Assembly (NCBI GenBank): GCA_936450465.1
Contig: OW388293.1
Span: 50,086,040 to 50,150,039 of the forward strand
DNA length: 64,000 nt
Source: Gibbula magus
Lineage: Eukaryota > Mollusca > Gastropoda > Trochida > Trochidae
Direction: 5' to 3'
Shown here: piece by piece, positions 4,011 to 62,457 of the stretch
How positions within the stretch are numbered: position 1 is the first letter of the stretch
Layout of the letters: every line of letters begins with the position of its first letter
Translations under genes and position numbers: made by a program
The notes under the pieces: model-generated
What the model saw: the letters and a program-made list of their open reading frames with translations, nothing else
Databases searched by the model: none
Told to the model about the DNA's origin: nothing

Positions 4011-4190
4011 ATATAACGGATTAATAATAAGGATATAGTTTGTTTCTACAATTATTATGATATCATAAGAGTAAATTTTTCTCTTCTCATAGAGTTTACT
4101 CCCTTCAGCTTTTCGATCATAACCTCTGTTCTACTATGGCCAATTTATCTTTTCTAACAAAATCCCCTCACGGTAAAAAAGAATACCACT

Positions 4191-4516
4191 AAGAATGGCA
4201 ACATCCAACATGATTTCATAGCTTTGGTCAAGAATGACAACATCCAACATGATATCATAGCTTTGGTCAAGAATGACAACATCCAACATGATGTCATAGC
4301 TTTGGTAAAAAATGACAACATCCAACATGATGTCATAGCTTTGGTCAAGAATGACAACATCCAACATGATTTCATAGCTTTGGTCAAGAATGACAACATC
4401 CAACATGATATCATAGCTTTGGTCAAGAATGACAACATCCAACATGATGTCATAGCTTTGGTCAAGAATGACAACATCCAACGTGATGTCATAGCTTTTG
4501 TCAAGAATAACAACAC
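4191..4516. repeat. 39-bp minisatellite, about 8 units
   Basis: Units of 39 bp (core 'atgacaacatccaacatgat' then 'tcatagctttggtcaag') repeat about 8.3 times, differing at a few positions. Since 39 is a multiple of three and lacks stops, ORFs of about 100-120 codons open on both strands. These are repeat shadows. Confidence 0.95.
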
Positions 4517-4560
4517 CTAGAAAACAGAAGGTTAAGTGTTATCACTATTACACCACTTTC

Positions 4561-15318: not shown

Positions 15319-15593
15319 TACCAGTAAAATCTCTGAATTCATCATCTAAAAGAATCTCCACAACAGCAATGATTTCATTGTCATAATTTAAATGCTAGTT
15401 AGAAAGATATTTTTCAGAGTTGGAAACATTTAGATCAGGCGAGTAGGATGAATGCCTAAGAAGTTGAAACGTGGTGTTTCTTGTCCACTTTTGATAAAGG
15501 GTCAAAAACCCTGGAACCCATCAAGCCAAAACCTTCCTCCATTTCGGAAAAATAACATCCCTTGCGAAAGAAATGACCTGTCACACTTATATA

Positions 15594-15770
15594 CAGTCAG
15601 GCCTCGATAATCCGAACGCTTCCGTTTTTCATCAAAAACGTTCGGATAGTGAAATGTTCGGACTATCGAGTACTGAGGACTACTAAAGAGATTAGTTTGG
15701 TTACATCTTCCTACCGTTCGGAAACTGCGAGATTCGGATTATCGGTGGCCGGATTATCGCGGCTTGACTA
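15594..15770 (+). mobile_element. Pogo-like MITE, copy 2
   Basis: TA-flanked (TA at 15592). It starts cagtcaggcctcgataatcc and ends ccggattatcgcggcttgac. The interior is nearly identical to the other two copies, which suggests recent spread. Confidence 0.8.
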
Positions 15771-15919
15771 TATGCTTTCATCAAATGATTCAGAATTTTG
15801 TGGGAGTACCTTAGCACAGGAAAAACTACACATGCAAAGAGTCACTGATATCACTGAGTTGCATGATTTTCCATTTGAGGCTTGTTACTCAATTAGCAAT
15901 CACCACTCGTACAAGTGAG

Positions 15920-30489: not shown

Positions 30490-33400
30490 ATGAATTTTGC
30501 ATCAAAATATGTGTTTGCTTACGAAAAACCAGAGTATGAGTATGTTTCGGAAGAGGAATATGACCACGGAATGAGCGTGAGGTGAGTGACAATATTGTAA
30601 ATACAATTTACAGCTATCTATTAAATATAAGACTGATTTTAAGTATTTTCTCTTCTTAGTTTACAACAATCTAAATATCAAATTAGACTGAACAATAACA
30701 TAAAATAATTCAATTCTTATTCACATAAGAAGTTAGTATAAATAAAAAAAATTAAACATATTAATTTATAATAAACACAGGGGCTTGTATTGCTGAAAAC
30801 AAACTGTTCCTAGGTTCAATACTACGATGCGATATACCTATACTTAAAAATAAAGAAAGGGAGGCAACGCCAATTTTACCCCCTGTCCAATCAAGTCCAA
30901 ATTCCAAAATGTTAAAACACGTTGTACACCTAAAACACATTGTAAAATTAAAGCACAGTGATTTCTCGTTCGAATAAAGCAAACATCAACAAACTCGGTG
31001 CATTATTTCTCAAGTTATGACACTTGAAACAAACTGTTTGAGAGGCATTCTAGAAGTTGGTGTGATGAAGAAGACAAATATTTATGGATGATAAACTTAT
31101 TAACAATAGCAACTTTTCGGTATATACCGTTATCAAGCATATGGGAGAGATGATAAAAACAGAGGTTATATACATGATACATTTTGGTATGATAATGAGA
31201 TAACAAAGACAACAAGATGAGATAACAATAAGATGAAAGGTGTAACAAGCAGGTTGTGATAACATGGATACCAGTGGTGTCTCAGCAATACATCGAAAAT
31301 AATCAAGGAAAAAGTCGATATTTCATTCCTAGCAAATTTAAAAGCGATCAATCTCGAAAAGAGTTTTCTACTATCACCTTACATCCCTGATACATTTGTC
31401 ATACTTGAATAGTTCGGGTATCTTACCGTTACAACTTAGCTATAGTCTGTTTGCTTCAAAATCATACCGATGAATTCATTATTAAAGTGAAACACAAGAA
31501 CAATAAATAAAACTTTTTTACATCTTTCTTATTTATTTTCACGTACCAACTCGTGATATAAATTTGATGATTTTATATAACGTAATAAAACAGTTGCTTA
31601 ACAACGTATCATATGATTGTTGTTGACTTAGAACATCTCATTACACGGGAGTCATTACAATGACTGTAACAGCCGAACACAGTAGACAGTCCCAGGGACA
31701 ATCTCAAAACTCTTCTGATGAATATTCACTGTCACTTCTGTCACTGACATCACTGTCAACTGAGATCACAATGGGTGTGACTGTTGCGTGGTGAAGACCA
31801 TCACGTCTCCAGTACGCAGATTCCACGTCGTTCACAACTTTGGCTACACATCTAGCCCAGACCTCCTGTGTGATGCTTGCAAGACTTTCGATCACAATAT
31901 TTTTCACATCTGAGAGTTTAAATGTCTCATTTTTCCTACCAACATCACCTTTAACGATACCCCAGATCGGATTCAAGTCACAGTGGTAGGGGGGAAGACG
32001 GAGAACATCATGTCCATGTGTATGCAAAAGTTTGGCAACTTTGTACACAGGTTTGGTTTTATTCAATTTGATGACATTGTACAGTACAGGCTTTGCTGCT
32101 TTTGTTGGGAATGGTACATTGTTCGCCTGCAACCAAGTTATCATGTCTCCTTTCCGTGAGTTTGACGTGGGAACCTTGGTATCCGGATCCTGTACACTGT
32201 CATATGATGCATTGTCCATGACTATAAGAGACTTCTTTGGCAGAGCAGGAATCAGTTGCGTCTCAGTCCATTCCAAAAACACGGTACCATTCATCTCTCT
32301 ATGATAGTCTCTGTTGTCCTTGGATTTTGAGCGAAAAACCAAATCACATTCAGGCAGAAATCCTTTACTTTCACACCCCGCATGCAAAATTATAAGTCTC
32401 TCTCCTTTGCCAAGGGGGAGTTTGCGAGACGTCTTGGCGTCAGTGGACACCCACTGACATGCCGTATGACAGGCATTGACCCAGGTTTCATCCAAATAGA
32501 CAATCTCGTATCCCTCTCCTCTTTTCTTCTTGATGGTACGTAGGTAGTTGTTCCTCAATGAGACAACGTCTTTTCTCTCACACAAAACATGTCTTGACTC
32601 CCCTGAGATCTTCTTGTAACAATACCCAAATGAATGTAACAGTTTCCAAAGACAATGTTTTGATACAATCAATGCATGTTCTTTCTTCAGATAGGACTTC
32701 AGTATTCTCAGTGAAATGAACTTGTTTTGTGAAAACAGTCTCCGGATAGTATTTCGGATAATTTCCTTTTGAAAACTGTCAACTTTTTTAACTTTAATTA
32801 TCTTTGAGATGGCCCCGCTGGTTGTCGTGTCTGTTTCATTTTGCTTCTGTAAAATGTACAACAGCTTTCCCTCAGTAATACCAAGAGCCTTGGCGGATCT
32901 CTTCCAATATTTACAAAGTGAAAATATCGACCTTCCCCTCTCTCCTTCAGCCTTGAAAAAGTTATAAACTCGATAGACAAGTTTTTCCAGATCATCAGTG
33001 AACTTCATAATGTACCGTAATTATTTAATATTGTTTTATATTTAATTGTGAAAGTGTGTATGATATGAACATTCATGGCAATTATGTGATGTGTATTATG
33101 CATTGATTTCGTATCAATTAAATGTTCATATTTGCACATTAATATTTCAATATTTCATCTAAAGGTATATATCTCCAGGGTTTATATCAATTAAACACTC
33201 TCTAACAATTTATGTTCTTTTTTAGCTGTGTTCATTTTCATAACATTATATACGGTAAATTGCTTGAGCGATTGCTACGACGAACATGAATTTCACGTGC
33301 AAACACACGGCTGTTTCGCTTATAGCCCGCCCGGATAATTCCAGGATTCGCAAGTTAAGGGTTAATAATGAATTCATCGGTATGATTTTGAAGCAAACAG

Positions 33401-42400: not shown

Positions 42401-44823
42401 TAGATGGGGCGCTAAGTTACGCCAAGTGTCTCATTCGCATATGTGTACCAGTAATAAGTATGTATTTTAATACTATTCTATTAATTTTTGTTGTCGCCAC
42501 TAATGGCTGCAATACTGCCCAAGCGGCGTTAAACAATAACTCACTCACTCACTCACTCACTCACTCACTCACTCACTCACTCACTCACTCACTCTATTAA
42601 TTTTACTGTTGTTTCTACAAAAGATTTTGATAATTTCAGACGATCTGATGAAGGAGAGAGTAGAGGAAAGAAAGGGGAGAAGAAAGCTTGGTACAGGAAA
42701 ATATTCAGCAAGATTCAGACCGTGGAGAACCACGTGACCAAAGCACAGCTGGTGAGTAGTACAGGGGAGATAACTCTGGCTGAGAGAGATTACAATTGTT
42801 AGCATGTACTTTATTATTGAAATGGTATTATCATTATTGATTCTATTTACATTTAATGCATACAGTCAGGCCTCGATAATCCGAACACTTCCATTTTTCA
42901 TCAAAAACGTACGGATAGTGAAATGTTCGGACTACTGAGTACTGAGGACGACTATAGAGATTAGTTTGGTTACATCTTCCTACCGTTCGGAAACTGCTAG
43001 ATTCGGATTATCGGTGGCCGGATTATCGCGGGTTGACTGTAGTGAATAAAAATAATCAGAGAAAAATTATGAAAATGATTTATGAAATTGTCAGGAATTT
43101 CTTCAAAAATTTAATGATCAACTTGCCTTCAATAAGTAAGAAGCTCACAAGTTTAATAATCATTTATACAATGATTGTTTGACTCTGGAATTTGATATTG
43201 TCCTTACACAACTTCAGCTTTGAAAATCTGTGCATGAAGCTTGTAATAGTGGGAACAAAAATACCTAACTGATATGACCTGTCATGTAACAGTTTCTATG
43301 TCATATTTGTCACCAGTCGGAGAGGTCGAGGTTTGGGACGACGTACAGCGATGAAGAAGATATTTCTGATGAGGAGGAAGCAGTGACAGCGTGTAAGAGC
43401 AAGAAGAAGAAAAAGGTAAAAATACATGTCAGAAGTTTGTTTTGATCTATTGACACAAATGGCTAGTCTTTTCACAGCCTCATGAAGGAGCTGTAGGCTC
43501 TGAAACTGGTTGAGAAATCCTGTTATCTTAGAAATACAGATATTTTGTGTTCATGGTATGGCATGAAAGATTTCTGTTTGAAAATATCACATCCACATTT
43601 AAAGATGCATGATTATCTTTGCATGATTGGTTCTAAAATGTACCAATTATTACAAAAGGTGGTAGTTTAGGTTATATCTTCTTACTCGACTTTCATATTC
43701 ACACTCAAATGCTTAATATATCAAATATATATATTACCTACGGGGTCAATCATATCAGGGTTCATATTTTTCATACGATGCCCTAGGGCAACATATCACT
43801 TTGTCATGGTGACGTGACATCATAAACAATGATATGACGTCACGTTTCGTCTATGACGTTGCGTTCTTAATGCGCGACGGCGGGTCGCCAGCCTATGGTT
43901 GAAAGTGGATTTTAGTGTGTTTTCATTAATTTCACGACTTCGGTAATAAACAGAATATTATATGAGTGTCTATGCCATACTGTGTTTACAACACTCCTGC
44001 CTGAATATCGGTATATCCCTCGCTCTCACTCGGGAAATACTAATATTCAGGCACTCGTGTCGTAAACATAGTATGACATAGACACTCAGCGAGCATTTTC
44101 AAAATGGATAGCCCCACTAATTGCGGCAGTGTTAAAATGGGTGAATTAAAATCATTATTAATAATCAATTGCAAGTGTGTATTGTCTCGATTTTATGCTC
44201 AATTGGTTCCGATATATAATGTACGTAGAGGTAATAAACTGTCATTCTCGAGAAAAATGCATTTCAGGTATCCTTTAAACATTGGGGCTGGAGTCACAAT
44301 TTGGGGTCCTTTTCACAAAGCAAGTCTCAGATTACAGCACGAGTAATTTGAATTTTACCATGCTCATGTAGATCATGTTACCATGACAACATGTGACGTG
44401 CATTTTCACGAACTGATACCCTTTGACTTTTCAATGGTAACCATCTGTACTCTACCAATAGCCCAACATGTTCTCTGACATTTACTAATGATATGACAAA
44501 CCATGCGCTGATATGCAAACAGAAACTATAATCGTTACAACTCGCGTTTCTTTTGCTGTTCAGTATATTACTTGAGAAGATTTTAGATCTTCAACCTAAG
44601 ATAATTATTCATGCAAATCCTGATGTGCTACAGAACCGATGGCTCTTTTCCATTACAAAGGAAGTTTGATAGATTTTCAGTTCATCTCTTCATCAAATTA
44701 GTTTTTTCTCCTCTTCAAGATGTCTCTTTTGTTGTTGAACAGAGTCGGGCCCGTACCTCTGAGATAGCGGACGACATGGCAAATGATGTTTACTGTCAAG
44801 CCCGCATCAGCAAATTCGACTGA
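30490..44823 (+). CDS. Sec23/24-type zinc finger and von Willebrand factor A protein ('circularly permutated Ras protein 1-like')
   Basis: Sixteen exons join in frame into 730 residues: 30490-30581, 34057-34169, 34502-34564, 34852-35039, 35391-35582, 37661-37876, 37999-38150, 38363-38569, 39234-39318, 39576-39682, 40082-40245, 41039-41236, 41796-41919, 42640-42751, 43317-43415 and 44743-44823. Every junction is GT-AG and phases agree. In order: an acidic then Pro/Lys/Arg-rich N terminus; a CxxC...CxxC zinc finger (C132, C135, C156, C159) like that of Sec23/Sec24; a vWA domain from about residue 200 to 470 with a full MIDAS (D206-I-S208-G-S210, T346, D372); a Ser/Thr/Pro linker (about 526-560); and a helical, charged tail with a Lys run. 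From memory, animal proteins of this layout are named 'circularly permutated Ras protein 1-like', though I see no Ras G-domain. Function is unknown; metal-dependent protein binding is inferred from the MIDAS. Introns hold many transposons. Confidence 0.9.
31486..33361 (-). mobile_element. Inner element carrying the transposase, bounded by TTAA
   Basis: TTAA stands at both borders (31482-31485 and 33362-33365), as left by TTAA-specific (piggyBac-like) insertion. The right border has the end CCCTTAACTTGCGAATCC, shared with the element at 53059. The left border lacks it, so that end is divergent or lost. The encoded transposase is IS630-like, which does not match a piggyBac end. Either the element is composite or the end belongs to a mobilised non-autonomous piece. 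Confidence 0.45.
31704..33008 (-). CDS. IS630/Tc1-type DDE transposase, third catalytic residue apparently lost
   Basis: An uninterrupted 434-residue frame. An N-terminal helix-turn-helix-like part (about 1-130) is followed by a DDE_3-type catalytic core: YLDETWV (D173), IVMDNASYD (D265) and LPPYHCDLNPIWG (339-350). Family members normally read LNPIE followed by one or two hydrophobic residues and W at the last position, so the expected Glu and its neighbours look deleted here in frame. The frame is otherwise intact, with an acidic Ser/Glu tail. It lies antisense in intron 1 of the vWA gene, inside a nested transposon (30776-33751). It is probably inactive in cutting but could still bind DNA. 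An alternative is that a nearby acid (D344) serves. Confidence 0.8.
   Translation of the reverse strand: MKFTDDLEKLVYRVYNFFKAEGERGRSIFSLCKYWKRSAKALGITEGKLLYILQKQNETDTTTSGAISKIIKVKKVDSFQKEIIRNTIRRLFSQNKFISLRILKSYLKKEHALIVSKHCLWKLLHSFGYCYKKISGESRHVLCERKDVVSLRNNYLRTIKKKRGEGYEIVYLDETWVNACHTACQWVSTDAKTSRKLPLGKGERLIILHAGCESKGFLPECDLVFRSKSKDNRDYHREMNGTVFLEWTETQLIPALPKKSLIVMDNASYDSVQDPDTKVPTSNSRKGDMITWLQANNVPFPTKAAKPVLYNVIKLNKTKPVYKVAKLLHTHGHDVLRLPPYHCDLNPIWGIVKGDVGRKNETFKLSDVKNIVIESLASITQEVWARCVAKVVNDVESAYWRRDGLHHATVTPIVISVDSDVSDRSDSEYSSEEF
35718..35955 (+). repeat. tRNA-derived SINE, 5' part
   Basis: The head is tRNA-like: an A-box-like 'tagcacagtgattagtgcg' and a B box 'ggttcgaatcc'. It lies in intron 5 of the vWA gene. 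The body continues after an inserted hAT element, at 37336-37399. Confidence 0.8.
35956..37327. mobile_element. Non-autonomous hAT element inserted in a SINE
   Basis: Ends CAGGGATGCAGA in inverted orientation are flanked by a perfect 8-bp duplication CTAGCAGC (35948-35955 and 37328-37335). It is 1372 bp and has no transposase frame. Removing it restores one continuous SINE. Confidence 0.85.
37336..37399 (+). repeat. tRNA-derived SINE, 3' part
   Basis: This is the remainder of the SINE that begins at 35718. It ends in the family tail 'aaagcggcgttaaacccc' and a short tcacc repeat. Confidence 0.75.
38880..39225 (-). mobile_element. Fold-back repeat in vWA gene intron 8
   Basis: The main 200 bp match 43752-43960 in inverse orientation ('aaaatccactttcaaccata', 'atgttgccctagggcatcgt'), with two TGACGTCA motifs. 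It ends a few bases before the exon 9 acceptor. Confidence 0.75.
42484..42594 (+). repeat. SINE-like tail followed by (CACT)n microsatellite
   Basis: 'gccactaatggctgcaatac' and 'aagcggcgttaaacaataac' are followed by about 14 copies of actc (42537-42594). It lies in intron 13 of the vWA gene. A reverse copy of the tail is at 61508-61566. Confidence 0.7.
42863..43039 (+). mobile_element. Pogo-like MITE, copy 3, in vWA gene intron 14
   Basis: Flanked by TA at 42861-42862 and 43040-43041. The inverted ends CAGTCA..CTCGATAATCCG resemble pogo/Tigger termini. Confidence 0.85.
43741..44095 (+). mobile_element. Fold-back repeat in vWA gene intron 15
   Basis: The inverse partner of 38880-39225, with 'atatgacgtcacg' and a terminal hairpin formed by 'tgtgtttacaacactcctgc' and 'ggcactcgtgtcgtaaacat'. 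A diverged third copy is at 10310-10560. Confidence 0.75.
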
Positions 44824-49496: not shown

Positions 49497-52400
49497 TTAC
49501 GGTGCCGGAATACATGACCGTGGAACAAAAACCTGAATAAGTTCATCCCAGCCGCAGTCAGCAATCTGCCAAAAACAAAGGTAAACTGATAAATCGGGAA
49601 TATGAATAAGATTAATCAATTTATCTTGGTGTCCTGCGATACATTGATTGATTATTGAACATCATTAATAAGGTAAATGCCCGACCAACTGTGGGTTATA
49701 TTAGCACACCGGTGTCTAATACAAAATATACAATATTTTTCAGAGCACTACAATACTGAGAGAAGTGCACATAAAATCCTTATTCCAATTTTATTCTGCA
49801 AATGTAACAACTCTTTTGTCAAACTGTAAAACAAAACTTTTAACTGTTAGTGCGTGGTCACTTTATCAGAGATTATCTGTCCATGGTTAATTGATGAAAT
49901 GAGATCTAGCATCTCCAAGTCAGAGCAGGAAAGTGTTGTCATCCCTGCACAAAGAGTCAACAACGAAAAAATGTGCTCTGACTGTCTCTATGAAGAAATG
50001 TCAGCATAAAAATAATCAAGCTGGGTCATAAAGGGGATGTATGCAGGGTATGAAATTCCCAAATCTTTAAGCCAGACCACAGGTCTGAAATACTTGCCAA
50101 GCTGGGTCATAAAGGGGATGTCCAAGGGGAGTGTAAAATGAGGGTTAATCAAATGAATGTTCAAAACTCAAACTTCCTCTCTCGATCAGCCACTGTGGGT
50201 CATTCTATATTGAGCTTGTTTAATTTGAATCTGTAGTTAATCTTAAAACTGTTGTCATGGTCCAATGGGGAGGTTTTCTAAAACTTTGCAAACTAATTTC
50301 AAAAATATTTGTTGATGGAGTTATAGCCCTTGAATCTGTTATTAAATCGAAATTAATGTTGTAAGCACAGTAAATAACACAATTAAGCTACATTTAAAAA
50401 GTTGACTTTAAGTGATTTTGATCTTTGACTTTCATATCATTTTATTTTACTGTTCACAAAGAAATGTGTTGTCATTCATGTATGACCTTCCAGTGTCAAA
50501 TTATAAAGAAATGAATTCTTTCTATTCACCTGTCCTGGAATGTGAAGGTTGAAGTCGAGCCCATATACAAACTCTGTGTGGTGTTGAATCACTTCCACTG
50601 CTTCTGGTTGGGTGTAGTCCCATACTCTACATACAAACATACACATATGTATTACACATAAGGTTAAACATATATTCAGTGTCATATGTTTAATATCACT
50701 TTTGCCTAGCAACCATTATAAGTTGAATATTAAGAAATTATTATGCTCAAAAGTGTACGATGCAATTTTTTATAAAACTCATGAAAGTTTTAAAAAGAAC
50801 CTTTGTTCTTGTTCAGATAATACAAAATTAACACTCAATTTGTAAATAATAAATGAAACATTTGCTTGTGTAGCACTCATTTAGCAACCTAGATAAAATG
50901 TATGAAAACAAAGATATTTGTTCACAAAGTAGTCCAGTAAGACAATATTCAAAGCCTTATTGCTGATTGGTGTCTTGCTCTTGTGTTATATAAAACCTGG
51001 CTGTATTGCTACACTGCATGGTTAAGAGTTACCAATCAGTGAAGCCAATTGTTACAAATACATTATAACTGAACCTACCCCCTGGCCCCCTGGCCCTCTG
51101 GCCCCCTGGTCTTCTCCTCAAGAGAATACGGTATTATCATACAAATGACTGGTGATAGACAGAGAAATAGACAGTCACTGAGAACTAATAACGTACCTGG
51201 TTGTAAAGTCGTAGGAACATGACGCTAGTTTTGTCGCCATGAAAGGTGACGTCTGAGAAAGAAAGAAATCCTTTAAAGTTTTACATTAATTACTGTCAAA
51301 CGTGGCACACATAGTTTTGGTTTGATAGATCTGTAAAGAATTACTTATAATTACTAATAATTTTCTCAATAAATGATTATTTATGAAGCAACATCGTGTT
51401 CACTATATTAAGATTTGCATAAATTATGCAAATGAAGGTATGAAAAATACAAAAGGCACATCTACACATGAAAGTGATTATATGTAATCAGTTTTCGTAA
51501 TATTTGAACAATTAGTGTCTGTGTTATGAGCGTAACAAGAAGTATGACGGATGGACACACTGACCGATACATACCCCTGATTACTTCATACAGGGGGTAT
51601 AACAAAGAAAGTAATCCATGACAGGGGTATGAAAAGCTTTGAAGCATTTTCGAAACATTTAAGAACTTATAATCTTTTACTGAACATCAAACCACTGACC
51701 CTGATCCTTCGTACAGCGTATTGATGACCTCTCAGCTCATACAAAGCTTGACGAGGGTTCCGAATATCCCAGCCACGGATCAAACCGTCCACGCTTCCAG
51801 AAAATACCATATTCTGTAAACAATACAAATCTTTAGAAAGTGCATAATGTTTTGGAAAATGATAATGTTGTAATTTTTCAATGAATATGACACAATTCTA
51901 AGATTCCCTGATAACAATTAAATCTACTGCATCTCTTTGAATACAACCAGTCTCGATTACAATCTGGGCCTTGAATAGAGCCCGTGGGGTTCAAGGGTGC
52001 TGAGGTAAATACAACCCGGGTCTTGAATATGGATTAAAGGTCTACCATACTTCCCTTGAATATAATCTGGGGGTTAGGGGGTGCTGAACGAAGTAGAACC
52101 TAAGGGTTGAATTCAAGGAAATAAGATACTTCTAGTTTAACCAACTAACTATCACTTCAAGTTGTCAGTTACCAATAGCACTGTCAAAGCCTTCAGAAAA
52201 TATATTATGTAGATGATTTCTAAACCTACTTATTCAAAAAGAGTTTTCATCGTATTTAAACTTTGTCTGTCATGACTTGAATTAAAATGGAACTTGCAGA
52301 TGGGATTCACACAAAAATAGAACCATCTGTAGCTAATTAGGATTTAAATAATTAATTATATACATGTTGGTTGAAAATGTACAATTTATAATCCACAAAA

Positions 52401-55400
52401 GCCAGACCAAAGCATCTGATTTTAGGGGATGGCCCCTTTGGCTCTCTTTAGGGGTCACAGGGTCACAGGGTCACGGGGTCACCAAATCTACAATTTAGAA
52501 TCCCCATCGACCAAGGAGTCTGTACACAACATTTAAGCTTTGTAGAGCTTTTTGTACTTGAGAAGAAGATGAAAATAGGTTTTTAGGTCATAACCACTGT
52601 GACTCATATTTGGGGTCACATGGTCACCAAATCTACAATTTAGAATCCACATTGGCCAAGGAGTCTATGCATAAAATTCCAGCTCTCTGGAGACAATGGT
52701 TCTGGAGAAGAAGTAAAAAAAAGCGTACGGACTGATGGACACCATGCCATACCATAAGCCCATTGGGACTTCAAGCCTTATGAGCTAAAAGTGGTAATAA
52801 TTGAAATTATTCATGAAAAGATGAGAAATTACTTGATCGTACTTGCACCAATCGCAAGTGAGTATTTCAGCGTTGTGTGCAGGTATGACACAGGTCGGGA
52901 AACTTGGCTTCCTAGCGTCCCACATTCGCAATGTCTGGTCTCCTGTTGCCATGGAGACAGAAATATTTTATAAACTATCATACATATAGATGTGTTTTAA
53001 AATGGGAGGATTTTTGTACCAGAAAAGAGTATGTCATCTGAAGTTGGTGTCATATTAACCCTTAACTTGCGAATCCCGGCATAGTCCGGGATGGCCATAA
53101 CCAATTGCTATGTGTCTCAATCCGGTTCCCATATATGCGAGATTTAGAATAATTCACGCCGGTCTCTCAGTTTGCTAGCCGTGGCCGCGGTCTCTTAGTT
53201 TGCTAGCCGTGGCCGCGGTCTGCGAGTCGATTGTCTCCGGGGGTCGCTCCATGAGAATGGCTGTATTTATGCTCCGCAGTTCGCCATGAGAATGAAACTT
53301 TGATCAATGTCTGGTCGAAATGTCCAGCAAAATTCACACCAATTTGCGTGTGCATTGTTGACTCGTAACGCATCGATAATTAGCTTTACAAAAGGCCAAT
53401 TTTGTCGGGCTTCACCCCGAAGCCTAATGTGCCTGGGGGCTAATTATCACCCACGTGTTTGCATTGCCTCGGGTTGGCCCCGCCTGTACATGCTATCTGC
53501 TTCGCATCTAGCGAGTTGGGGAAAAAAATCGGTTACTCGCCTTACTCCCACACTTCATATTATGTGAACGAATTGTTTGTTTTAAAAATTAATTATAGCA
53601 AAATAAAGGGGAAAGAATGGACTACAATCCCATTTAAAATTTGCAAATGTCAAAAAAATAATAAAGACAAAGCAAGCGCCGTGAAAAAGGTCATGTTTAC
53701 ACTTCATAAATTTTGAAACAATCAGCGATTTTCACAACTTCTTACACATTTATCACTGCTAAATTACTGAATGCATTTTCATAATTTTCATACCGGTATC
53801 ACAATAAACCGAAAAGAATAATCTTTTATTCTATATAAAATGCGCATTTTTATTCACAGAAATAAAGATACAATTTTACCTTTCTGAGAGGCATGTGAAA
53901 CCAAACGACAGACAAACTAATCAACATATTTTCATCAGTTATGGTTCGAGGTTAGGGTTTATTTGAAAGGTCAAACAACATAACCATAATTGGGTTGACA
54001 TGTGCTTATTTGTCAATTGGTTTGAGATTATGATTTCTTGGAAAAGTGCGATGAACGACCGTTTGCAATGCCGCATACATGTTGTAAGTATTTATGATTT
54101 TATAGGTGGAAATAAAGACAAACTTTACATAGCTATATAATTATAACCAAAGGTCGCATTCTAATAATTTTTATATCATTGTGAAGCTAGACATATTGTC
54201 TTCAATTCCGTATATAAATGGAATTTTTTCGTTTCGTATTTATGATGTTACAAGGCACGATTTAAAGACAATCATAGAAAATAATTTCAAAGTTTCGGGT
54301 GTGAAGTAGCCATTTGTGTACGGGTGTCGCTACTTGAATTTGTATAGAACGCCCATATATAGTCCGCATTCGCCATGTAGATGCGGTATATTTCGTAAAA
54401 ACAGTACCGGAATCGCCGCCTGGAAATTCCGCCAGCACAGCTAATTAGTGCCTAAGACAAAACTACTGCTGCGAGCTGCGAGCCTGGAAATTCCGCCACA
54501 GGGGCTAAAATTGGTAAAATAGAAATACCCAACTTGAGGGTTAATATGGTTATATTATATATCAAGTCAACATTCTATCAAAACCATATAAAAACAAAAT
54601 TCCTATTTATGTCTAACGAACAACAAGTAAAAGACAACTGCGGCTATGTACCCTATCCATAACCAATTGATCCTCTAAAGCAGAACTAACTTGTGTGTAA
54701 CGAAAGACAGGTGTGGAGAAGACTAACGAGTACATACCTGAGGCAGAGAGGATACAACCAGGTATGTGACGGGACCGGACAGGTGTGGCGAAGACTAACA
54801 AGTACATACCTGAGGCAGAGAGGCTACAACCAGGTATGTGGGGAGACCAGACAGGTGTAGTGAAGACTAAAGAGTACATACCTGAGGCGGAGAGGATACA
54901 ACCAGGTATGTGGGGAGACCAGACAGGTGTGGAGAAGACTAACGAGTACATACCTGAGGCAGAGAGGATACAACCAGGTATGTGGAGGGACCGGACAGGT
55001 GTGGAGAAGACTATCGAGTACATACCTGAGGCAGAGAGGATACAACCAGGTATGTGGGGAGACCAGACAGGTGTGGAGAAGACTAACGAGTACATACCTG
55101 AGGCAGAGAGGATACAACCAGGTATGTGGGGAGACCAGACAGGTGTGGAGAAGACTAACGAGTACATACCTGAGGCAGAGAGGATACAACCAGGTATGTG
55201 GAGGGACCGGACAGGTGTGGCGAAGACTAACAAGTACATACCTGAGGCAGAGAGGATACAACCAGGTATGTGGAGGGACCGGACAGGTGTGGAGAAGACT
55301 AACGAGTACATACCTGAGGCAGAGAGGATACAACCAGGTATGTGGGGAGACCAGACAGGTGTAGCGAAGACTAAAGAGTACATACCTGAGGCAGAGAGGA

Positions 55401-58400
55401 TACAACCAGGTATGTGGGGAGACCAGACAGGTGTGGAGAAGACTATCGAGTACATACCTGAGGCAGAGAGGATACAACCAGGTATGTGGGGAGACCAGAC
55501 AGGTGTTGTGAAGACTAAAGAGTACATACCTGAGGCAGAGAGGATACAACCAGGTATGTGGGGAGACCAGACAGTGCTGTACACGATCGACTCGTGGCCA
55601 GTGAAGGTCATCACAGACTGTGGCGACTGGAGGTCCCACTAAAAAATAATAATGGATTTATTTAGCTTATTTTAATTAGTCAGAGGAAACTACTGCAGCA
55701 CAAATGTAATACCGCTGTATATATGACATCATAATTTGTAATAGTTAACATAATATGAGGACTGTAGTCTTTGGCCTAAATTTGAATTCACAAGGTTTTT
55801 GTCGTCTCACTGTCTGCGATTTTGCATGATTTAAATAACTGAGTAATAAACAAAATGCTAAGTATGTAGGCTGTCATATACCAAACCCCAATTTACACAA
55901 AACGTGCGACAGGATATATAAGCCAAGTATAGTTTACACTTCATTACCTTAAAACTTGGTTAACTTACATATAACGAATCAAGAAACAATGTACATTTAA
56001 ACTTTTTTTTATCAAACTCTTGTTAGGAGTTGTCGTTAGATGAGGTAAAGTTAGATTATATGGATTTATAAATTACTTACAGCAAAACTTAAAAAAAATA
56101 TCCACTCACTACTTTAATGAAGTTATCCCAAGACCCAGTGACAATCAGATTTTCTCCTCTCGTTGGACTCCAATCAACTGAATTTATCTGAAAGTTTAAA
56201 AAAAGATGGATCATATCAGACAGCTGGTTAAGAATAAATATAAAATAATGATGATAATTTAGCTGCATCATTAACTTGAAATATAGGGGCAGAGACAGGG
56301 TGTTTTTTTTCGGGATGTCTCAATTACGTCATTTATTATAATTATTGTAATTGCCCCCCGATTACACATTGCATATTGGAGCATTACAAGTTACAACCCT
56401 CCACATGGCTTTTGATTTTAATTAAAGTAAGTACGCGAGTAACAATTGCAATCAAGAGGTTTTGACTATTCATACATCTTGGTTTTCCTTCATCTCCACA
56501 ACTTTTAAAATGTCACTTAAAGAAGAAAAAACAAAAAACGGAGGAAAGCATTTAATCTAAAACTAAAAAAAGGTTTGTGAATAATGTATATATATATATA
56601 CTCACCTCCTTACTGTGTTCTTTATATGCCTTTATTGGACCCTAGAAATGTTATTGTTAATAAATTAATCAAAAGGTTGTTTTTTTAAATACAAAATTTA
56701 ATTTAAATAAATTTTAAAATCATACCCGAGCAACATAGAGTATATACATTTAGCGGATGGTGTATGTTTATGAAGTCATTTTGTTTTACAAAAGTCTATG
56801 AAATTTTCCCAAATTTATTGATCGAAAAGAATAACACATTTGTGAACAAACATGCAATCTTCACTTTTAGTTTAAAAGAATTGATATTAATTAAATCTTG
56901 TGTACCTTTGGTTGGAGAATATCCCAGACAACCAGTGACCCATCACCCCCTGCTGCTACAAGAATATTCTCGTTATTCTCCGCCCATGTCACATCATATA
57001 GTCCGTCATTCCACTCGAACGATCCAGTAGGAACAATTCTGTCCTGTTGTACCTCCAAGAGAAAAAGAGTTCCACTTCCTGAAAGATAAATGATCAGTTA
57101 GTGTTCTATCATTTTAGAAGCCTATCAGCGATTTCGTCTATTGTTTCGCAGGTACCTTGTTTTCTCGTAATAACCCTACACTATTATCTCAGTCGGGTTT
57201 TCTTCTGATAATAATCCTGTATGAGGTTTTTATTGTGAAAGTAAGTTTTTACTTTTGAAGTTAAGACCTTAAATGAGACTAAGAATTGTATGTCAAACCA
57301 ACAAACCAATTCTTTTCACAACGATTAAGTATCAAAAAGTATACAAAGATAACTTTTTCAGAGCGTAAATGGTGGGAATCGAAGTCTATACCCTTTCCTC
57401 CTTAAGGACGCTCTACCTCCACGCTACCAAGGAAGCCTAAAGAACAGTGTGGATTTCCTCTTTTTATAGTCATACCTTCTCTGCTTCTATATAACGCTAG
57501 TCTGGGAAACATACTCTTTATAAAGCAGGATTTGGGAATTAAAAAATATAAAATGTAAATTTTGACATTTGACGGTTATAAATTAAAAAAACCCCGCCTA
57601 CCCCTCATTCTTTTGCTGTAAGAAAAACTTCAATATACGATAAGCCCTCACATTTCTGTTGATCGGGAACTAAGTTAGATAAAACACTCTACCTTGGTTA
57701 TGCTTGGGATTTAAAACCCTCGTTAAGAAAGAATCTGGGAAGTAAGACCTTAGCTTCCTCACCTCAGATTTTACAATCCCAACAGGGGTTAACAAATGTG
57801 ATTACCCAGTAAATAGCGCACCTCAACTTGCCCGGTGGCAAGTAAACAATCAAAAGTCATATTAAAAACTTACATCAAGAAGAAATTTAGAACACCCTCC
57901 AAAGTTCTTACATAACTGATAATTGTTATTCATCATATGATTTTTGTTTCTATTTGTCATTTCAACACATTTCTTACAATATTTCACTGAGAAACCCATA
58001 GTGTGTTCAGGTACCAAAAACCAATCAGCAAAGATGAATGATATTCCGAATGCTTTCGTGGAATGCATAAGGTCATTTGACCTGATTTCCTGGAAGGGTG
58101 TGTTTGTGTGACATGTTTCAACAGGGGACAGGAACTATTTTTATTTCACCAATTATTGAATACTGAATAGTAACACTAGCTGTAATATTAGGGTCAGAAA
58201 CACAACCATTTATCGTTTTCTAAATTGGTTTGATCATATTAGTGGTTTATAATTATGACAACAACAGATATTAATACAATGCAAGCTGATTAATTTCATG
58301 AACATATGTGTAAACACACTTGACCGAAACAACTTTGTGTTTTGATTGACTTTGATGTAGGCCTGATGTGTACCCGTATTTTAGCTCATCAGGCCTAAAA

Positions 58401-61400
58401 GGCCGGATGGGCTTATGGCATGGCATGGTGTCCGGCGTCCGTCCATCCGTAAACTTTTCGCTTTTTCAACTTCTTCTCGAGAACCAATGACTCCACAGAG
58501 CTGTAATTTTATGTGCAGACTCCTTGGCCAATGGGGATTCTAAATTGTAGATTTCGTGAACCCGTGACCCCAAATGGGGTCACAGGGGTCACATCCTTAA
58601 AAACCTATTTTCATCTTCTTCTCCAGTTCCAAAAGGTCTAGAGAGCTGAAAAGTTGTATGCAGACTCCTTGGCCAATGGGGATTCTAAATTGTAGATTTT
58701 GTGACCCCTTGACCCCAAATGGGGTCACAGGGGTCACATGTTTAAAAACCTATTTTCATCTACTCCAGAACAAATGTACCTAGAAGGCTGTAATATTGTG
58801 TGCAGACTCTTTAGCCAATGGGGATTCTAAATTTTAGACTTGGAGACCCTGTGGTGCCTCAAATAAGGGCCTCAAGCCATGACTTAAAAATCTATTTCAG
58901 TCTTCATCATTAAACAATATAAACCCTGATGAGCTACAGAGCCCATGGCTCTATTTTTAATTGTTATGCCCACTTTTGTGAAAACCTGAATTCATAATTG
59001 TTACAATGATCCTCAAGCAAATGAATTCTTTAATTTATCATAATCTTGTACCTCAAATTTAGCATACACTTATGGGTTTATATATATTGATAGAAAATAT
59101 TCACTGCACCGAGAATCTCTGAATCAAAGTAAAGATAAAATTCATTTATACCAGCCAATCAAAGGTGAACTCATTTTAACAGCAGCCAAACAAGTCTCTG
59201 ATTACTGTGCTTGTCTTATCAAATGTTCAATATATTTTAATTTTTTTTAAATATTCTTATTAAGAGGCTGATTAAAATACCCACCCTGCATTAGCTGTTT
59301 TATATACTGTTTGTCATACTCACACAATGTTGATTTGTAATCATTGTGACAAATAAAACTGAATGACCCCCAAAAACCATATTCATGACTCCCTCACTCA
59401 CCAGCAGGGAGTAATAATGACTTTTAAATCTGCCTACATGGGAGTAGGGCAAACACTGAATTAGACTATTTTAATTATGAGTTCTGATTGCTCATTTGGA
59501 AGGTCTAGTCAATTAAGACTAAAAACAGACACACACACATTATGTTATTAGGTCTTCAAGACATAGTCTGGAAGACGTATTGTTTTTATGGGAATCCTTA
59601 TTATTATTTCCACGATTTTTGTCCGGCGATTCCTTAAGTAACAGCTGAACCGATTTTGATGAAACTTTCAGGGATGGTACAATTCAATGAGACTTAGAAA
59701 TGTGTCGAACGGATTTCTGATTGCTTGATCCATTAAAGGTCCAGTTCGATTCTAAGTTTCAATTTTTAACATTGGAACTTTTTTTAAAAGATGCGCAATG
59801 ACAATGTGAGCAAAAAGGTAAATTATGGCGAATAGGTAGGTCACGTGGTTTAGCCGCCATTTTGATTTTTGTCATTTTTTTAAAGTGTCCAACCCCATGT
59901 ACCTTTGACAATCATCTTCTCTGAAGATACTTGCACCACGAATCTGACATTTATTTTTGTATGTAGCTGAAGCATTGGTGAATACAAGGTGTTGTTTTTC
60001 AGGAGTGAACTCCTAATACTTTTCGCACAGTGACCGTACAAAGTTGGGCGACTTGTTACACGGGACCTACTTCAAGGGGACAATACTCCAACTTCCCAAT
60101 CTTACAATTGCATGAAATTTTCAGGGCTACTAGATAAATATAGTGTCTTTAGGAATCAATAATAAAATCGCTCGCGAACAGTCATTTCCGGTCACAATTA
60201 AGGCTGAAATTTTCAAAATTGACATAGTGACTTGAAACTTTTTTCAAAAGATGGGCAATAACAATGCGACGATAACAATCATGACGAATTCTAGGTCACG
60301 GGGTTTTCCCGACATTTTGTTTAAAATGAAATTTATGATCTTTTGAGGTTTTCTCAGTACATTATAACATGATATGAATGGAAGTTTTGACAGAACAATG
60401 TTTGTGACATTCCTCGATCAAGTTGAGTTGAGGGTCAAACAGAAGTCTTGAAGACCTAAGTATTGACGCGTCAATCCTAGTTTTGTTTTATTATTTTATT
60501 ATTTATTTATTACTTTATTTCTATGCAAATAGTGGGCAAGTATGAACAAAATCAGGGCAAGTAAAAACACAATTTACACTTGCCCTTGGGCAAGTAAAGA
60601 TTTTTCAAATTGTTTAACCCCTGCCCAAGCATAACTTCTGTATCGTGTTTTATCCTACACATAACACCCTTCAATGTACTGTGTTGTAACACAGGGAAAG
60701 ATCAAATTCTGAATTTCTTGTAGCTGAAAATACTAATGACATTTAAAATTTAGAACTAATATTGTCATAAAATCATTGAACAATTCACGCTTGTTTAAGA
60801 AATGACTATTGTAGACATGTAATAAATTCATAATCATTTAGATTTACACTCATGTTTGTTCCAGTATGTGGTGAAATATGTACATTTATAGTTATATTTA
60901 TATAAAATTTGTTCTTTCGTTTCCACAAAAAATACCCTGATAGAATGTACCTCCTTTAAATGGATCTGCATGCTGCTGTCCCTACCACATTCTTTGTAGA
61001 CAGCGCCTTTTTTTCTTTCTTTCTTTTTACATAGTTCAATCTTATTTTGAGATGGCTATAGGATAGGATAGGTAGAATCAATTGATGTAAAAAAATTAGT
61101 GCAAGAATTTATCTTAAAGATTCTATGCATGCTTCAGAATTTCCATCACCTGAGAGGCGGTAATTTTTTTCTGCTCCATTCTGAGAGGGAGAATTATGAT
61201 CATGTGACTTTCTATTTACAGATCGACTGTCACTATCCGATGACTGATTTTATAGATTTTTTGTCCTGGTACTTTTATAGACATTTTATTTTGCATTTGA
61301 AATGCTGTTAATGATTTTAGTAGTCAATAGTAACTCTTCCTTTGATATAATTTATCTTCTGGATTTCCAATATTGTTAATATTTATCTATATGCATGAGC

Positions 61401-62457
61401 ATCCGGCCTACTGGCGAAACCACCTGTACTCTCATAATATATATAGCGTGAGAAATTAGATCATCGCACTCACCCGAACATTGAATTCTGCTCGTTTTAC
61501 GATATAATGAGTGAGTGAGTTATTGTTTACGCCGCTTCGGCAGTATTGCAGCCATTAGCGGCGAACGATATAATGATGTGACAACAAATTAGAGTAAAGT
61601 CCTCATATTTCGGCCACTTTAACGGTGACCTCGCTTGCAGGCATTCTAACCCTCACTGGCCTCACTCGGCACTTCTTGGTCAACAATCAGCCGGAGGCAA
61701 AGAGTCTTTGTTATAAGAAAAATGATTGGCTGATATTTTAAAGGGGGTAACTCTTATGAATAAAATAGCGTAAAAGCAAGGGTATGCGTCGGGTTATTTC
61801 GTCCACCAATCTCGTAATTTCGTCCAAACAGATTTAAGTATCAGAGACACTGTATTATAATTTCGTCCACCTGTTTTTGTCGTTTTCAAGTCTCCCGGGC
61901 GGGAAGGTCGTGACATAACAGCTTCGTCACATTGTATCAACCATTCAACAATGCTGTATGTACCATGTGACTAATATCGATTGACTGATATTCTTAGTAA
62001 GAAAAATAACAAACGAGACAACGATTTGAGGGTAGGACAGGCTGTAAATTTGCCTTTTTTGAAAAGTGGACAAAATATCAGGACTGGACAAAATGGTAGG
62101 ACTTTACTCTATATGTTATGTATGAAACAAGCATTAACGATCTGCCCGAGGTAAAATGCATTCTATCATCTCAGTATCACTCAAGCAGCCAGTTGATAAT
62201 TGCGATAAGACAATGTTGACAGTAGGCTGCTTGAGTCACAGACATGCATATTACCACAAAGATGGAGGCATTTTGCACACGACCCTCTTTGTGAAGTCAC
62301 AAGGTCTATTACTGAAGTTTTTTTCGCATTTTAAATATCTTCTCGTACCTGCTATTCCATAATGTTGAGATGATGCACACGCAAGTCTTTCGGGATAATA
62401 TGGAGAAAATTTGACGGAATATCCATGTCTGGATTGTGTTCTAAATGTTACATTCAT
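49497..62457 (-). CDS. PEX7: Peroxisomal targeting signal 2 receptor, peroxin-7
   Basis: PEX7 is the WD40 receptor that binds PTS2 signals in the cytosol and brings cargo to the peroxisome. Ten exons join in frame into 316 residues (human 323): 62457-62349, 57078-56906, 56641-56606, 56187-56110, 55638-55530, 52942-52833, 51813-51700, 51252-51197, 50626-50530 and 49565-49497 (stop TAA). Diagnostic blocks include [120 protein letters not shown] and IADCGWDE. An in-frame TGA four codons upstream fixes the start. Intron 1 (5.3 kb) and intron 5 (2.6 kb) hold transposons. The last 72 bp around the exon 5 donor are the first of 12 tandem copies that run into intron 5. Confidence 0.95.
52415..52790 (-). 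repeat. Reverse copy of the 'agctcat' repeat in PEX7 intron 6
   Basis: Contains 'aatctacaatttagaatccc', 'ccataagcccattgggactt' and 'ccttatgagct', the complement of the repeat at 58383. Confidence 0.65.
53059..54540. mobile_element. TTAA-flanked piggyBac-like non-autonomous element in PEX7 intron 5
   Basis: TTAA lies at 53055-53058 and 54541-54544. Ends are CCCTTAACTTGCG on the left and the complement of CCCTCAAGTTGGG on the right. The first 18 bases match the right border of the inner element at 33361. It is 1482 bp, more GC-rich near the ends, with no transposase frame. It lies beside the PEX7 minisatellite. Confidence 0.65.
54711..55574 (-). repeat. 12 x 72 bp minisatellite made from the PEX7 exon 5/intron 5 border
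   Basis: Twelve head-to-tail units of exactly 72 bp, with few substitutions. The unit at 55503-55574 includes the true exon 5 end and donor (exon edge 55530). The other eleven lie in intron 5. On the minus strand each unit carries exon-derived codons [15 protein letters not shown], then the donor CAG|gtatgt, then intron-derived sequence that reads MYSLVFSTP. Because 72 is a multiple of three and no unit has a stop, long frames stay open on both strands. The chance ORFs here come from this repeat and are not separate genes. Confidence 0.95.
55524..55559 (-). promoter_or_regulatory. Exon 5 splice donor facing its own complement
   Basis: The donor CAGGTATGT (55532-55524 on the minus strand) is perfectly complementary to ACATACCTG in the same exon (55559-55551), with 18 nt between. 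The exonic segment, with one more G, matches 9 of 10 bases of the U1 snRNA 5' segment ACUUACCUGG. The pair recurs in all 12 minisatellite units. A regulatory effect is inference. Confidence 0.5.
58383..58960 (+). repeat. 'agctcatcaggcc' mollusc-type repeat in PEX7 intron 1
   Basis: Starts agctcatcaggcctaaaagg. Inside are three tandem units of about 130 bp with 'cagactccttggccaatggg' and 'gattctaaattgtagattt'. A reverse copy lies at 52415-52790. It has the look of a repeat common in bivalve genomes (from memory). Confidence 0.65.
59550..60480. repeat. Shorter copy of the 'aggtcttcaagac' element in PEX7 intron 1
   Basis: Same start (aggtcttcaagacatagtct, gaagacgtattg) and end (agtcttgaagacctaagtat, tgacgcgtcaatcctag) as the copy at 17425. 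Confidence 0.55.
61508..61566 (-). repeat. SINE-like tail in PEX7 intron 1
   Basis: 'gagtgagtgagttattgttt' then 'acgccgcttcggcagtattg' is the complement of the tail at 42484. Confidence 0.6.

Follow-up and report, generated by a model that had tools for sequence, protein, structure and literature searches.

The splice donor of PEX7 exon 5 in the Gibbula magus genome has been turned into a tandem array of 12 units of 72 bp, of which the first contains the true exon 5 border and the remaining eleven lie inside intron 5. The anatomy of this array, its presence at a single locus and the recurrence of similar arrays at other exon borders are established by the assembled sequence, and clear examples of the exon-border donor array architecture are present in at least two further genes of this genome. 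Such border minisatellites were quite probably born by slippage and would be tolerated because the first donor wins and the copies remain intronic.

The window, that is, the whole 64,000-nt stretch of DNA analysed, carries on its minus strand a gene of 10 exons with canonical GT-AG borders throughout, encoding an intact product of 316 aa. This product is a WD40 protein that shows 76% identity over 100% coverage to a PTS2-receptor-like protein of Haliotis asinina, and the top of its PDB table is chain 3w15_A, 'Peroxisomal targeting signal 2 receptor'. The gene name proposed by a first-pass annotation of this DNA, PEX7, was thus confirmed. The exons are located as follows:

62349..62457, minus strand, PEX7 exon 1
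56906..57078, minus strand, PEX7 exon 2
56606..56641, minus strand, PEX7 exon 3
56110..56187, minus strand, PEX7 exon 4
55530..55638, minus strand, PEX7 exon 5, 109 nt, ending in ...CTCTCTGCCTCAG; the exonic part of unit 1 is formed by the final 45 nt
52833..52942, minus strand, PEX7 exon 6, with the acceptor ...GGCAACAG|GAGACCAG, to which donor 1 is expected to be joined
51700..51813, minus strand, PEX7 exon 7
51197..51252, minus strand, PEX7 exon 8
50530..50626, minus strand, PEX7 exon 9
49497..49565, minus strand, PEX7 exon 10; the stop codon ends at 49497

The intact 316-aa protein needs donor 1, and no second copy of PEX7 was found in the genome. A retrocopy, which would show the mature mRNA, was not present either among the 17 protein matches in the genome, nine of which correspond to the PEX7 locus and the other eight to WD40-like sequences with 25-40% identity.

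Tandem Repeats Finder (TRF) identified one array in the window (54705-55574, period 72, 12.1 copies, 94% matches, score 1530), whose parts are:

54711..55574, minus strand, array of 12 x 72 bp, each unit with 45 exon-derived and 27 intron-derived bases
55527..55532, minus strand, PEX7 exon 5 donor CAG|GTA, the first of the 12 donors, with the exon border at 55530|55529
54738..55458, minus strand, eleven intronic donor copies, each scoring as an acceptor too; their last exon-like bases are 55458, 55386, 55314, 55242, 55170, 55098, 55026, 54954, 54882, 54810 and 54738
55569..55574, minus strand, CTGTCT in exon 5, a member of the 6-bp direct repeat bounding the array
54705..54710, minus strand, CTGTCT directly after unit 12, the second member of that repeat

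The sequence CAG|GTATGT occurs 12 times on the minus strand at a spacing of exactly 72 nt, its core being kept in every unit, and the last exon-like bases range from 55530, the true exon 5 border, to 54738. The first-pass annotation was right in placing the start of the array at the real border (55530|55529), in counting 12 intact donors and in describing a 72-bp unit that is in frame. It had also called the units exact, which holds for their length alone: 11 of the 72 columns are variable (6/45 exon-derived and 5/27 intron-derived), with 0-8 differences between any two units. The proposed division into approximately 42 coding and 29 intron bases becomes about 45 + 27, with an ambiguity of 6 bp due to the CTGTCT at both ends. 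Minisatellites are made up of highly similar units of 10-100 bp repeated head to tail, and the PEX7 array (72 bp x 12.1, 94% matches) is one of them. Since a single locus was found in the 140-contig assembly of this 1.47-Gb genome and variant units are interspersed along the array, the latter is not obviously an assembly artefact, judging by the assembled sequence.

This anatomy suggests how the array may have arisen. The CTGTCT direct repeat, present in exon 5 and 72 bp further on in the intron, could have given rise to a first tandem duplication across the splice donor, and unequal exchange or slippage would then have expanded it to 12 copies; an origin as a border minisatellite is supported by the donor copies, which follow the true donor at intervals of exactly 72 nt, and by the CTGTCT at both ends. 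All the copies lie downstream of the true donor, which would explain why the array is tolerated. If, among equal donors, the first is preferred, the spliceosome would join donor 1 (55530|55529) to exon 6 and remove the other eleven as intron, generating the ordinary 316-aa PEX7. Occasional use of a later donor may add in-frame 24-residue modules at a low level, and the cost of the array to the cell would be low. We infer the order of events from the anatomy and the choice of donor 1 from the intact PEX7 and PMC6783452, and this low cost is likewise inferred; we judge correct the earlier description of the copies as decoy donors that the cell must ignore.

In libraries of designed reporters that carried two consensus donors, splicing went predominantly to the first, acceptors showing no such preference (PMC6783452). 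Several points weigh against this first-donor reading of PEX7. The 'first come-first served' rule rests on donor pairs, not on 12 donors. In the same source the stronger of two unequal donors dominates, and the true donor of a second array-bearing gene, the glucosylceramidase described below, appears weaker than its decoys (TAG|GTGAGT, matrix score 6.4 vs 8.6). Folding predicts pairing for every donor of the PEX7 array, donor 1 among them. Finally, the array of a putative D8C-domain gene is acceptor-like too, which favours the dual use of sites considered below.

Homology searches identified the genes that carry sister arrays at an exon border. A GH30 glucosylceramidase (exon Pfam E 1.8e-26, with GH30C in the next exon) has a donor array of 46 bp x 19.7 at C1:76.54M, and NUP133 (PDB phmmer 4.7e-11, the match reaching the border residue) has one of 23 bp x 9 at C3:6.41M with GT in 8 of the 9 units. 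A third array, of 65 bp x 27.8 at C1:4.26M, follows a D8C_UMOD-like exon (E 6.4e-4; its 20.3 bits fall short of the 27-bit cut-off); it probably belongs to a D8C-domain gene and is a weaker case than the other two. No unit length here is divisible by three, so that downstream donors, if used regularly, would break the frame; with two firm arrays and a weaker one out of frame, the in-frame unit of PEX7 looks like a 1-in-3 accident. Duplication of this kind has also taken place at other exon borders of this genome, out of frame in the three homology-supported cases. Judging by the arrays sampled, minisatellite growth in this genome does not seem to leave exon borders untouched, and the first-pass view that such a border is unusual in a housekeeping gene needs qualifying, as exon-border arrays recur here. 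Overlapping matches to donor-like arrays compared with the reversed pattern numbered 2828 v 3289, 1305 v 1045 and 88 v 0 (72 of these 88 coming from a single 15-bp array), with no consistent enrichment.

The other outcome proposed by the first-pass annotation was a protein variable in length and splicing, in which alternative use of donors 1-12 would insert 0-11 modules of 24 residues between SASG and DQTLRMWD to yield a functional length-variable PEX7. The 72-bp unit, the 12 intact donors and the exon frame without stops, which stands as that annotation reported it, agree with this idea. The absence of stops is weak evidence, because a second minus-strand frame and one plus-strand frame contain just one stop each. 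We searched for the module with the array frame, whose best match (78 bits) was ordinary PEX7 (best 120 of 157 matches), and with PEX7 plus 11 modules, which again ranked ordinary PEX7 first (best 120 of 258 matches). Neither set of matches listed contained a module-bearing protein, for which a far higher score is expected, so these results speak against the variable protein; several of the matches listed are unnamed, and the database searched lacks this species' own PEX7 (best match 76%), making the absence of an isoform there weak evidence. An insertion at SASG|D was seen in 0 of 187 PEX7 homologues. Furthermore, the WD-repeat Trp is changed to Arg in four of the 12 units, all four intronic, and the six exon-derived variable columns comprise three synonymous (11, 14 and 38) and three residue-changing ones (6, 13 and 31), indicating no clear protein constraint on the copies. 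Taken with the out-of-frame sister arrays, these findings make a functional variable PEX7 highly improbable.

Exon 5 itself shows one peculiarity. Residue 165 of PEX7 is Leu, compared with Ala in 184 of 187 homologues and Val in Gigantopelta, and it is the sole never-seen residue among the 73 PEX7 sites conserved at 95% or more. The same test in seven other molluscs gave one or two such sites in three of them and none in four. That the array might have driven drift of exon 5 is a lead only.

An unlikely possibility that nevertheless deserves consideration is that each AG|GT of the array is dual-specific, acting as donor or acceptor, with whole 72-nt units being spliced out or kept randomly. 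UBC, with nine AGGT units and an RT-PCR ladder (PMC10809524), may be a precedent, and in human tandem repeats introns that are a multiple of the repeat unit were enriched 8.4-fold, according to the portion of PMC10809524 available. Each jump would regenerate CAG|GTATGT, so that stepwise (recursive) removal of units is conceivable, which would mostly yield normal mRNA and, as a side product, an in-frame ladder. When the gene's 668 AGs are scored as acceptors by matrix, places 2-12 and 14 go to the 12 AGs of the array; eleven of these (7.89-7.96) exceed all nine true acceptors (best 7.04) and the other (6.67) exceeds eight, and when 51 AGGT sites are ranked for dual use, those of the array take the first 12 places. 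These scores reflect the pyrimidine tract and the AG, whereas the branch site argues against such a ladder: the best candidate reaches 4.48 in eight units, which is the 75th percentile among 639 other AGs, and scores lower in the other four, and it has U at -2 in only one of the 12. The 72-nt unit is also far shorter than the smallest PEX7 intron (264 nt). In other arrays scored likewise, the D8C array (4.8-6.8) and the copies of an ORF-only array, L053 (6.0-7.8), also resemble acceptors; this likeness is moderate in glucosylceramidase (1.6-4.7) and absent in NUP133 (-2.4 to 0.1), L056 (0.3-1.4) and L057 (-6.2 to -3.4). Acceptor-likeness is therefore unnecessary for an array to persist, and dual sites were rejected as a general explanation of border arrays.

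The donors of PEX7 also have a potential partner in their own exon:

55524..55559, minus strand, predicted hairpin of unit 1, formed by ACATACCTG(G) and the CAGGTATGT donor, with the polypyrimidine stretch between them; repeated in every unit

The sequence CAGGTATGT is found 12 times on the plus strand as well, once among the exon-derived bases of each unit; as a result, a 9-nt sequence perfectly complementary to the donor lies 18 nt upstream of it in all 12 units. This plus-strand complement was absent from the first-pass annotation. We consider it very doubtful that the hairpin is a regulator that hides all the donors from U1 and delays the removal of intron 5. The exonic ACATACCTG complements the donor at 9/9 positions, compared with 8/9 for the genome's own U1 5′ end (ATACTTACCTGG); array donors are predicted to be unpaired at 0.01-0.06 (array fold) vs 0.18-0.51 for the other eight PEX7 donors (local folds); and of the gene's 677 other GT 9-mers only 2 have a comparable complement within 60 nt. 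None of the 11 variable columns falls in the 18 that make up the hairpin arm plus donor (P = 0.03, in a test chosen after the fact and given no weight), which could hint at constraint and so speak against a merely tolerated array. Against a regulatory role, the whole region folds no better than shuffled sequences (z -0.19, 87/200 as good) and the arm codes for HIPG, which is conserved in homologues. No donor-masking hairpin was seen in six other arrays examined, with first donors 0.17-0.54 unpaired, and this ruled out the hairpin as a general explanation of border arrays. It is similarly improbable, if slightly less so, that the PEX7 unit combines donor, acceptor and donor-masking hairpin in a pre-mRNA working as a self-correcting recursive-splicing ladder, which would leak copy-number-dependent in-frame isoforms, and that border arrays are a standing class of this genome; in this reading, the PEX7 array would be the most elaborate of the exon-border donor arrays seen.

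The tolerated border minisatellite that we favour bears on how donors are chosen. Choice among identical sites has so far been tested with designed pairs in the work reported in PMC6783452, and this snail genome offers natural series at true exon borders, 9 to 28 units long and in or out of frame, whose decoys match the true site in strength or, in glucosylceramidase, exceed it. Knowing which donor is used would directly test the first-come rule and the cost of extra splice sites, and border arrays could catch an early step in intron change by tandem duplication. The literature searched (titles and the starts of abstracts, most subscription journals lying outside it) revealed neither a PEX7 repeat nor an exon-border array of splice donors.

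Several known systems resemble the PEX7 array in part. Human UBC and VCX3A also consist of head-to-tail units each with an AG|GT that is potentially donor and acceptor, and the UBC unit is likewise a multiple of three (PMC10809524, available portion); in PEX7, AGGT stands at every unit boundary (12/12 CAG|GTATGT). In contrast, the UBC array is exonic, its unit is a whole ubiquitin and unit splicing has been demonstrated, whereas in PEX7, where splicing by units is hypothetical, every unit but the first sits within a pre-existing intron and corresponds to part of an exon border. The copied PEX7 segment spans an exon/intron junction, as does CBS 844ins68, in which a duplicated 68-bp portion of the intron 7/exon 8 junction creates two splice sites and the cell strongly favours one, neutralising the extra copy (PMC2630376, whose available passage says 'splice donor' while the title it cites names a 3′ splice site); there is one extra copy at intron 7/exon 8 in CBS and eleven at the exon 5 donor in PEX7. 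The intron gain in potato RdRp also involved a boundary-spanning tandem duplication that passed on splice signals, in that case a single one producing a new intron instead of an array within an old one (PMC4974935, in the part available). The 38-bp VNTR of TERT intron 6 is, like PEX7, an intronic minisatellite able to pair in the pre-mRNA (PMC3948165, in the part available). Lastly, the tandem donors of PMC6783452 share with PEX7 the arrangement of equal donors in series, but as designed reporter pairs, unlike the natural arrays of 9-28 units in the snail.

The host gene is read on the minus strand, where ten exons taken from the window and joined across GT-AG introns give an uninterrupted protein of 316 aa. 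Its top database match is a PTS2-receptor-like protein of the vetigastropod snail Haliotis asinina (76% over full length), and chain 3w15_A, "Peroxisomal targeting signal 2 receptor", ranks first in a PDB search, identifying it as PEX7. Neither a second PEX7 nor a PEX7 retrocopy was found in the 1,470,318,725-bp genome searched (140 contigs, window included). The window also holds several other repeats and elements. PEX7 introns carry similar repeat pieces with GGGTCACA at 52333-52700 and 58380-58840; a repeat with SQASIIRTLPFFIKNVRIVKCSDY in its translation occurs twice (15577-15918 and 42774-43050) and is probably a dispersed element; a 39 bp x 8.3 array at 4158-4520 has three open frames, two on the minus strand and one on the plus strand; and a 438-aa open frame on the minus strand (31704-33020) matches DDE_3 below the cut-off (25.8 vs 28.6 bits) and is probably a Tc1/mariner-like transposase.

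The donor array that the first-pass annotation described at the PEX7 exon 5 border is real. CAG|GTATGT recurs twelve times with an exact spacing of 72 nt, starting from the exon 5 donor itself, and TRF reports the array at 54705-55574 (72 bp x 12.1, matches 94%). Unit 1 comprises the final 45 nt of exon 5 and 27 nt of intron. The units had been called exact, which does not hold: 11 columns vary, and units compared pairwise differ at 0-8 sites. Identical pairs are non-adjacent (2/8, 4/7 and 6/9), a pattern that unequal exchange could leave, and CTGTCT, which opens the exonic part of unit 1 and recurs immediately after unit 12, is a plausible seed of the first border duplication. A genome search with exon 5 plus array, in which very common words were skipped, matched the PEX7 locus alone. 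The stricter triple pattern CTCAGGTATGT (spacings 51-81) found three loci genome-wide, namely PEX7 and two arrays with shorter units, of 15 bp on contig C1 and of 31 bp on C12; its reversed control found none. By the tested features the PEX7 array is a minisatellite. Codon 165 reads Leu in all 12 units, true exon included, against Ala in 184 of 187 homologues, which hints at joint evolution of array and exon.

Splicing from later donors would insert modules of 24 residues per unit between SASG and D, and a length-variable in-frame protein had been proposed on this basis. As claimed, the exon frame contains no stop across the array; one stop occurs in another minus-strand frame and one in a plus-strand frame, and a unit length divisible by three is a 1-in-3 chance. 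Three of the six variable exon-derived columns are synonymous; at column 13 the copies encode Leu in three units and Arg in another. Against such isoforms, four of the copies have lost the WD40 Trp to Arg through a T-to-C change in column 6, and residues between SASG and D were absent from all 187 homologues examined among the matches listed (of 649 and 157). Searches with the modules gave ordinary PEX7 alone among the matches listed and no protein carrying them. We therefore regard the in-frame isoform as very improbable.

Splice signals were scored with generic position matrices. On these matrices, the array donors rank 6-17 among the 781 GTs of the gene and the array AGs rank 2-12 and 14 as acceptors among 668; 11 of these AGs outscore all nine true PEX7 acceptors and the twelfth (54809, 6.67) outscores eight, and in a dual-use ranking of AGGT the top 12 of 51 are the array sites. 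The best branch-site candidate in the array is ordinary, with U at -2 in 1 of 12 units. Every array donor is perfectly complementary to its own unit's ACATACCTG, and the predicted unpaired probability of the donors is 0.01-0.06 vs 0.18-0.51 in the eight other PEX7 donors (0.04 in a single-copy version with the flanks joined). Folding of the region as a whole is no better than that of shuffled sequence (z -0.19), so the pairing with ACATACCTG is specific yet gives no sign of selection. All ten U1 loci examined, of 42 matches, carry ACTTACCTG, which pairs with the array donor at 8 of 9 positions. U1 snRNA genes form a large tandem cluster at G000:C15:48140667-48173802 (same snail genome), with spacing mostly 704 bp.

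The more general discovery is that donor arrays recur at exon borders of this genome. Three CAGGTRWGT at spacings 44-74 (pattern 1) gave 1367+1461 overlapping matches genome-wide vs 1778+1511 for the reversed pattern, and CAGGTRAGT at spacings 75-105 (pattern 2) gave 286+1019 vs 69+976. The first 100 places listed per pattern, outside which the PEX7 array falls, contain at least 23 distinct arrays, 10 from pattern 1 and 13 more from pattern 2; two of the former, C1:83.02M and 83.04M, have the same flank. Upstream flanks were inspected for 20 of the 23 (all except C2:35.03M, 80.15M and 80.24M). Two arrays lie at exon borders by strong homology, one probably does so by weaker homology, and three are candidates from an open frame that runs into the array. 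At the other 14 no exon was seen, a judgement made mostly by eye on open frames, with Pfam on a few, and hence no proof of absence. The six arrays with visible or possible exons are as follows.

L042:4491-5397 (G000:C1:76537490-76538396), minus strand: GH30 glucosylceramidase gene, donor array at an exon border (unit 46 bp, 19.7 copies)
L059/L062 (G000:C3:6409950-6411100), minus strand: NUP133, donor array at an exon border (unit 23 bp, 9 copies)
L043:3935-5730 (G000:C1, ~4.26 Mb), minus strand: D8C_UMOD-like exon followed by a donor array (unit 65 bp, 27.8 copies)
L053 (92 bp), L056 (50 bp) and L057 (19 bp): open frame into a donor array, possible exon

The GH30 barrel runs into its array (E 1.8e-26), with GH30C encoded in the next exon; the NUP133 exon matches PDB Nup133 chains as far as the border residue (E 4.7e-11). 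The strict donor motif is kept in 14 of about 20 and 8 of 9 units, respectively. The D8C_UMOD-like match is weak (20.3 bits vs a cut-off of 27), and Pfam and PDB gave no homology support for the open frames of L053, L056 and L057. Unlike PEX7, the other arrays include units with damaged donors.

Sister arrays with units of 46, 65 and 23 bp (1, 2 and 2 modulo 3) have grown to 9-28 copies. Regular use of a later donor would break their frame; most simply read, these arrays imply that splicing relies mainly on the first, true donor. In designed libraries (PMC6783452), the first of two consensus donors was predominantly used across contexts, the order of acceptors was without effect, and the stronger of donors differing in strength dominated. 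The glucosylceramidase array offers a sharper test of a first-donor rule, which it could break, since its true donor TAG|GTGAGT scores 6.4 vs 8.6 for its decoys, the intronic copies (generic matrices). Among the seven arrays compared, the donor is masked in PEX7 alone; acceptor-likeness, on the same matrices, is strong in PEX7, the D8C array and the copies of L053, whereas the glucosylceramidase shows it moderately and NUP133, L056 and L057 lack it. Thus neither property is a general reason for tolerance, and dual donor/acceptor use is possible where acceptor-likeness is strong. For PEX7 itself the best reading, which we consider quite likely, is a border minisatellite that the gene tolerates, donor 1 being the one used.

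The systems nearest to the PEX7 array are the dual-specific splice-site arrays of UBC and VCX3A (PMC10809524), a type defined at the RNA level to which the PEX7 array may belong, the silent border duplication CBS 844ins68 (PMC2630376) and intron gain via boundary duplication (PMC4974935). The PEX7 array unites traits of all three.
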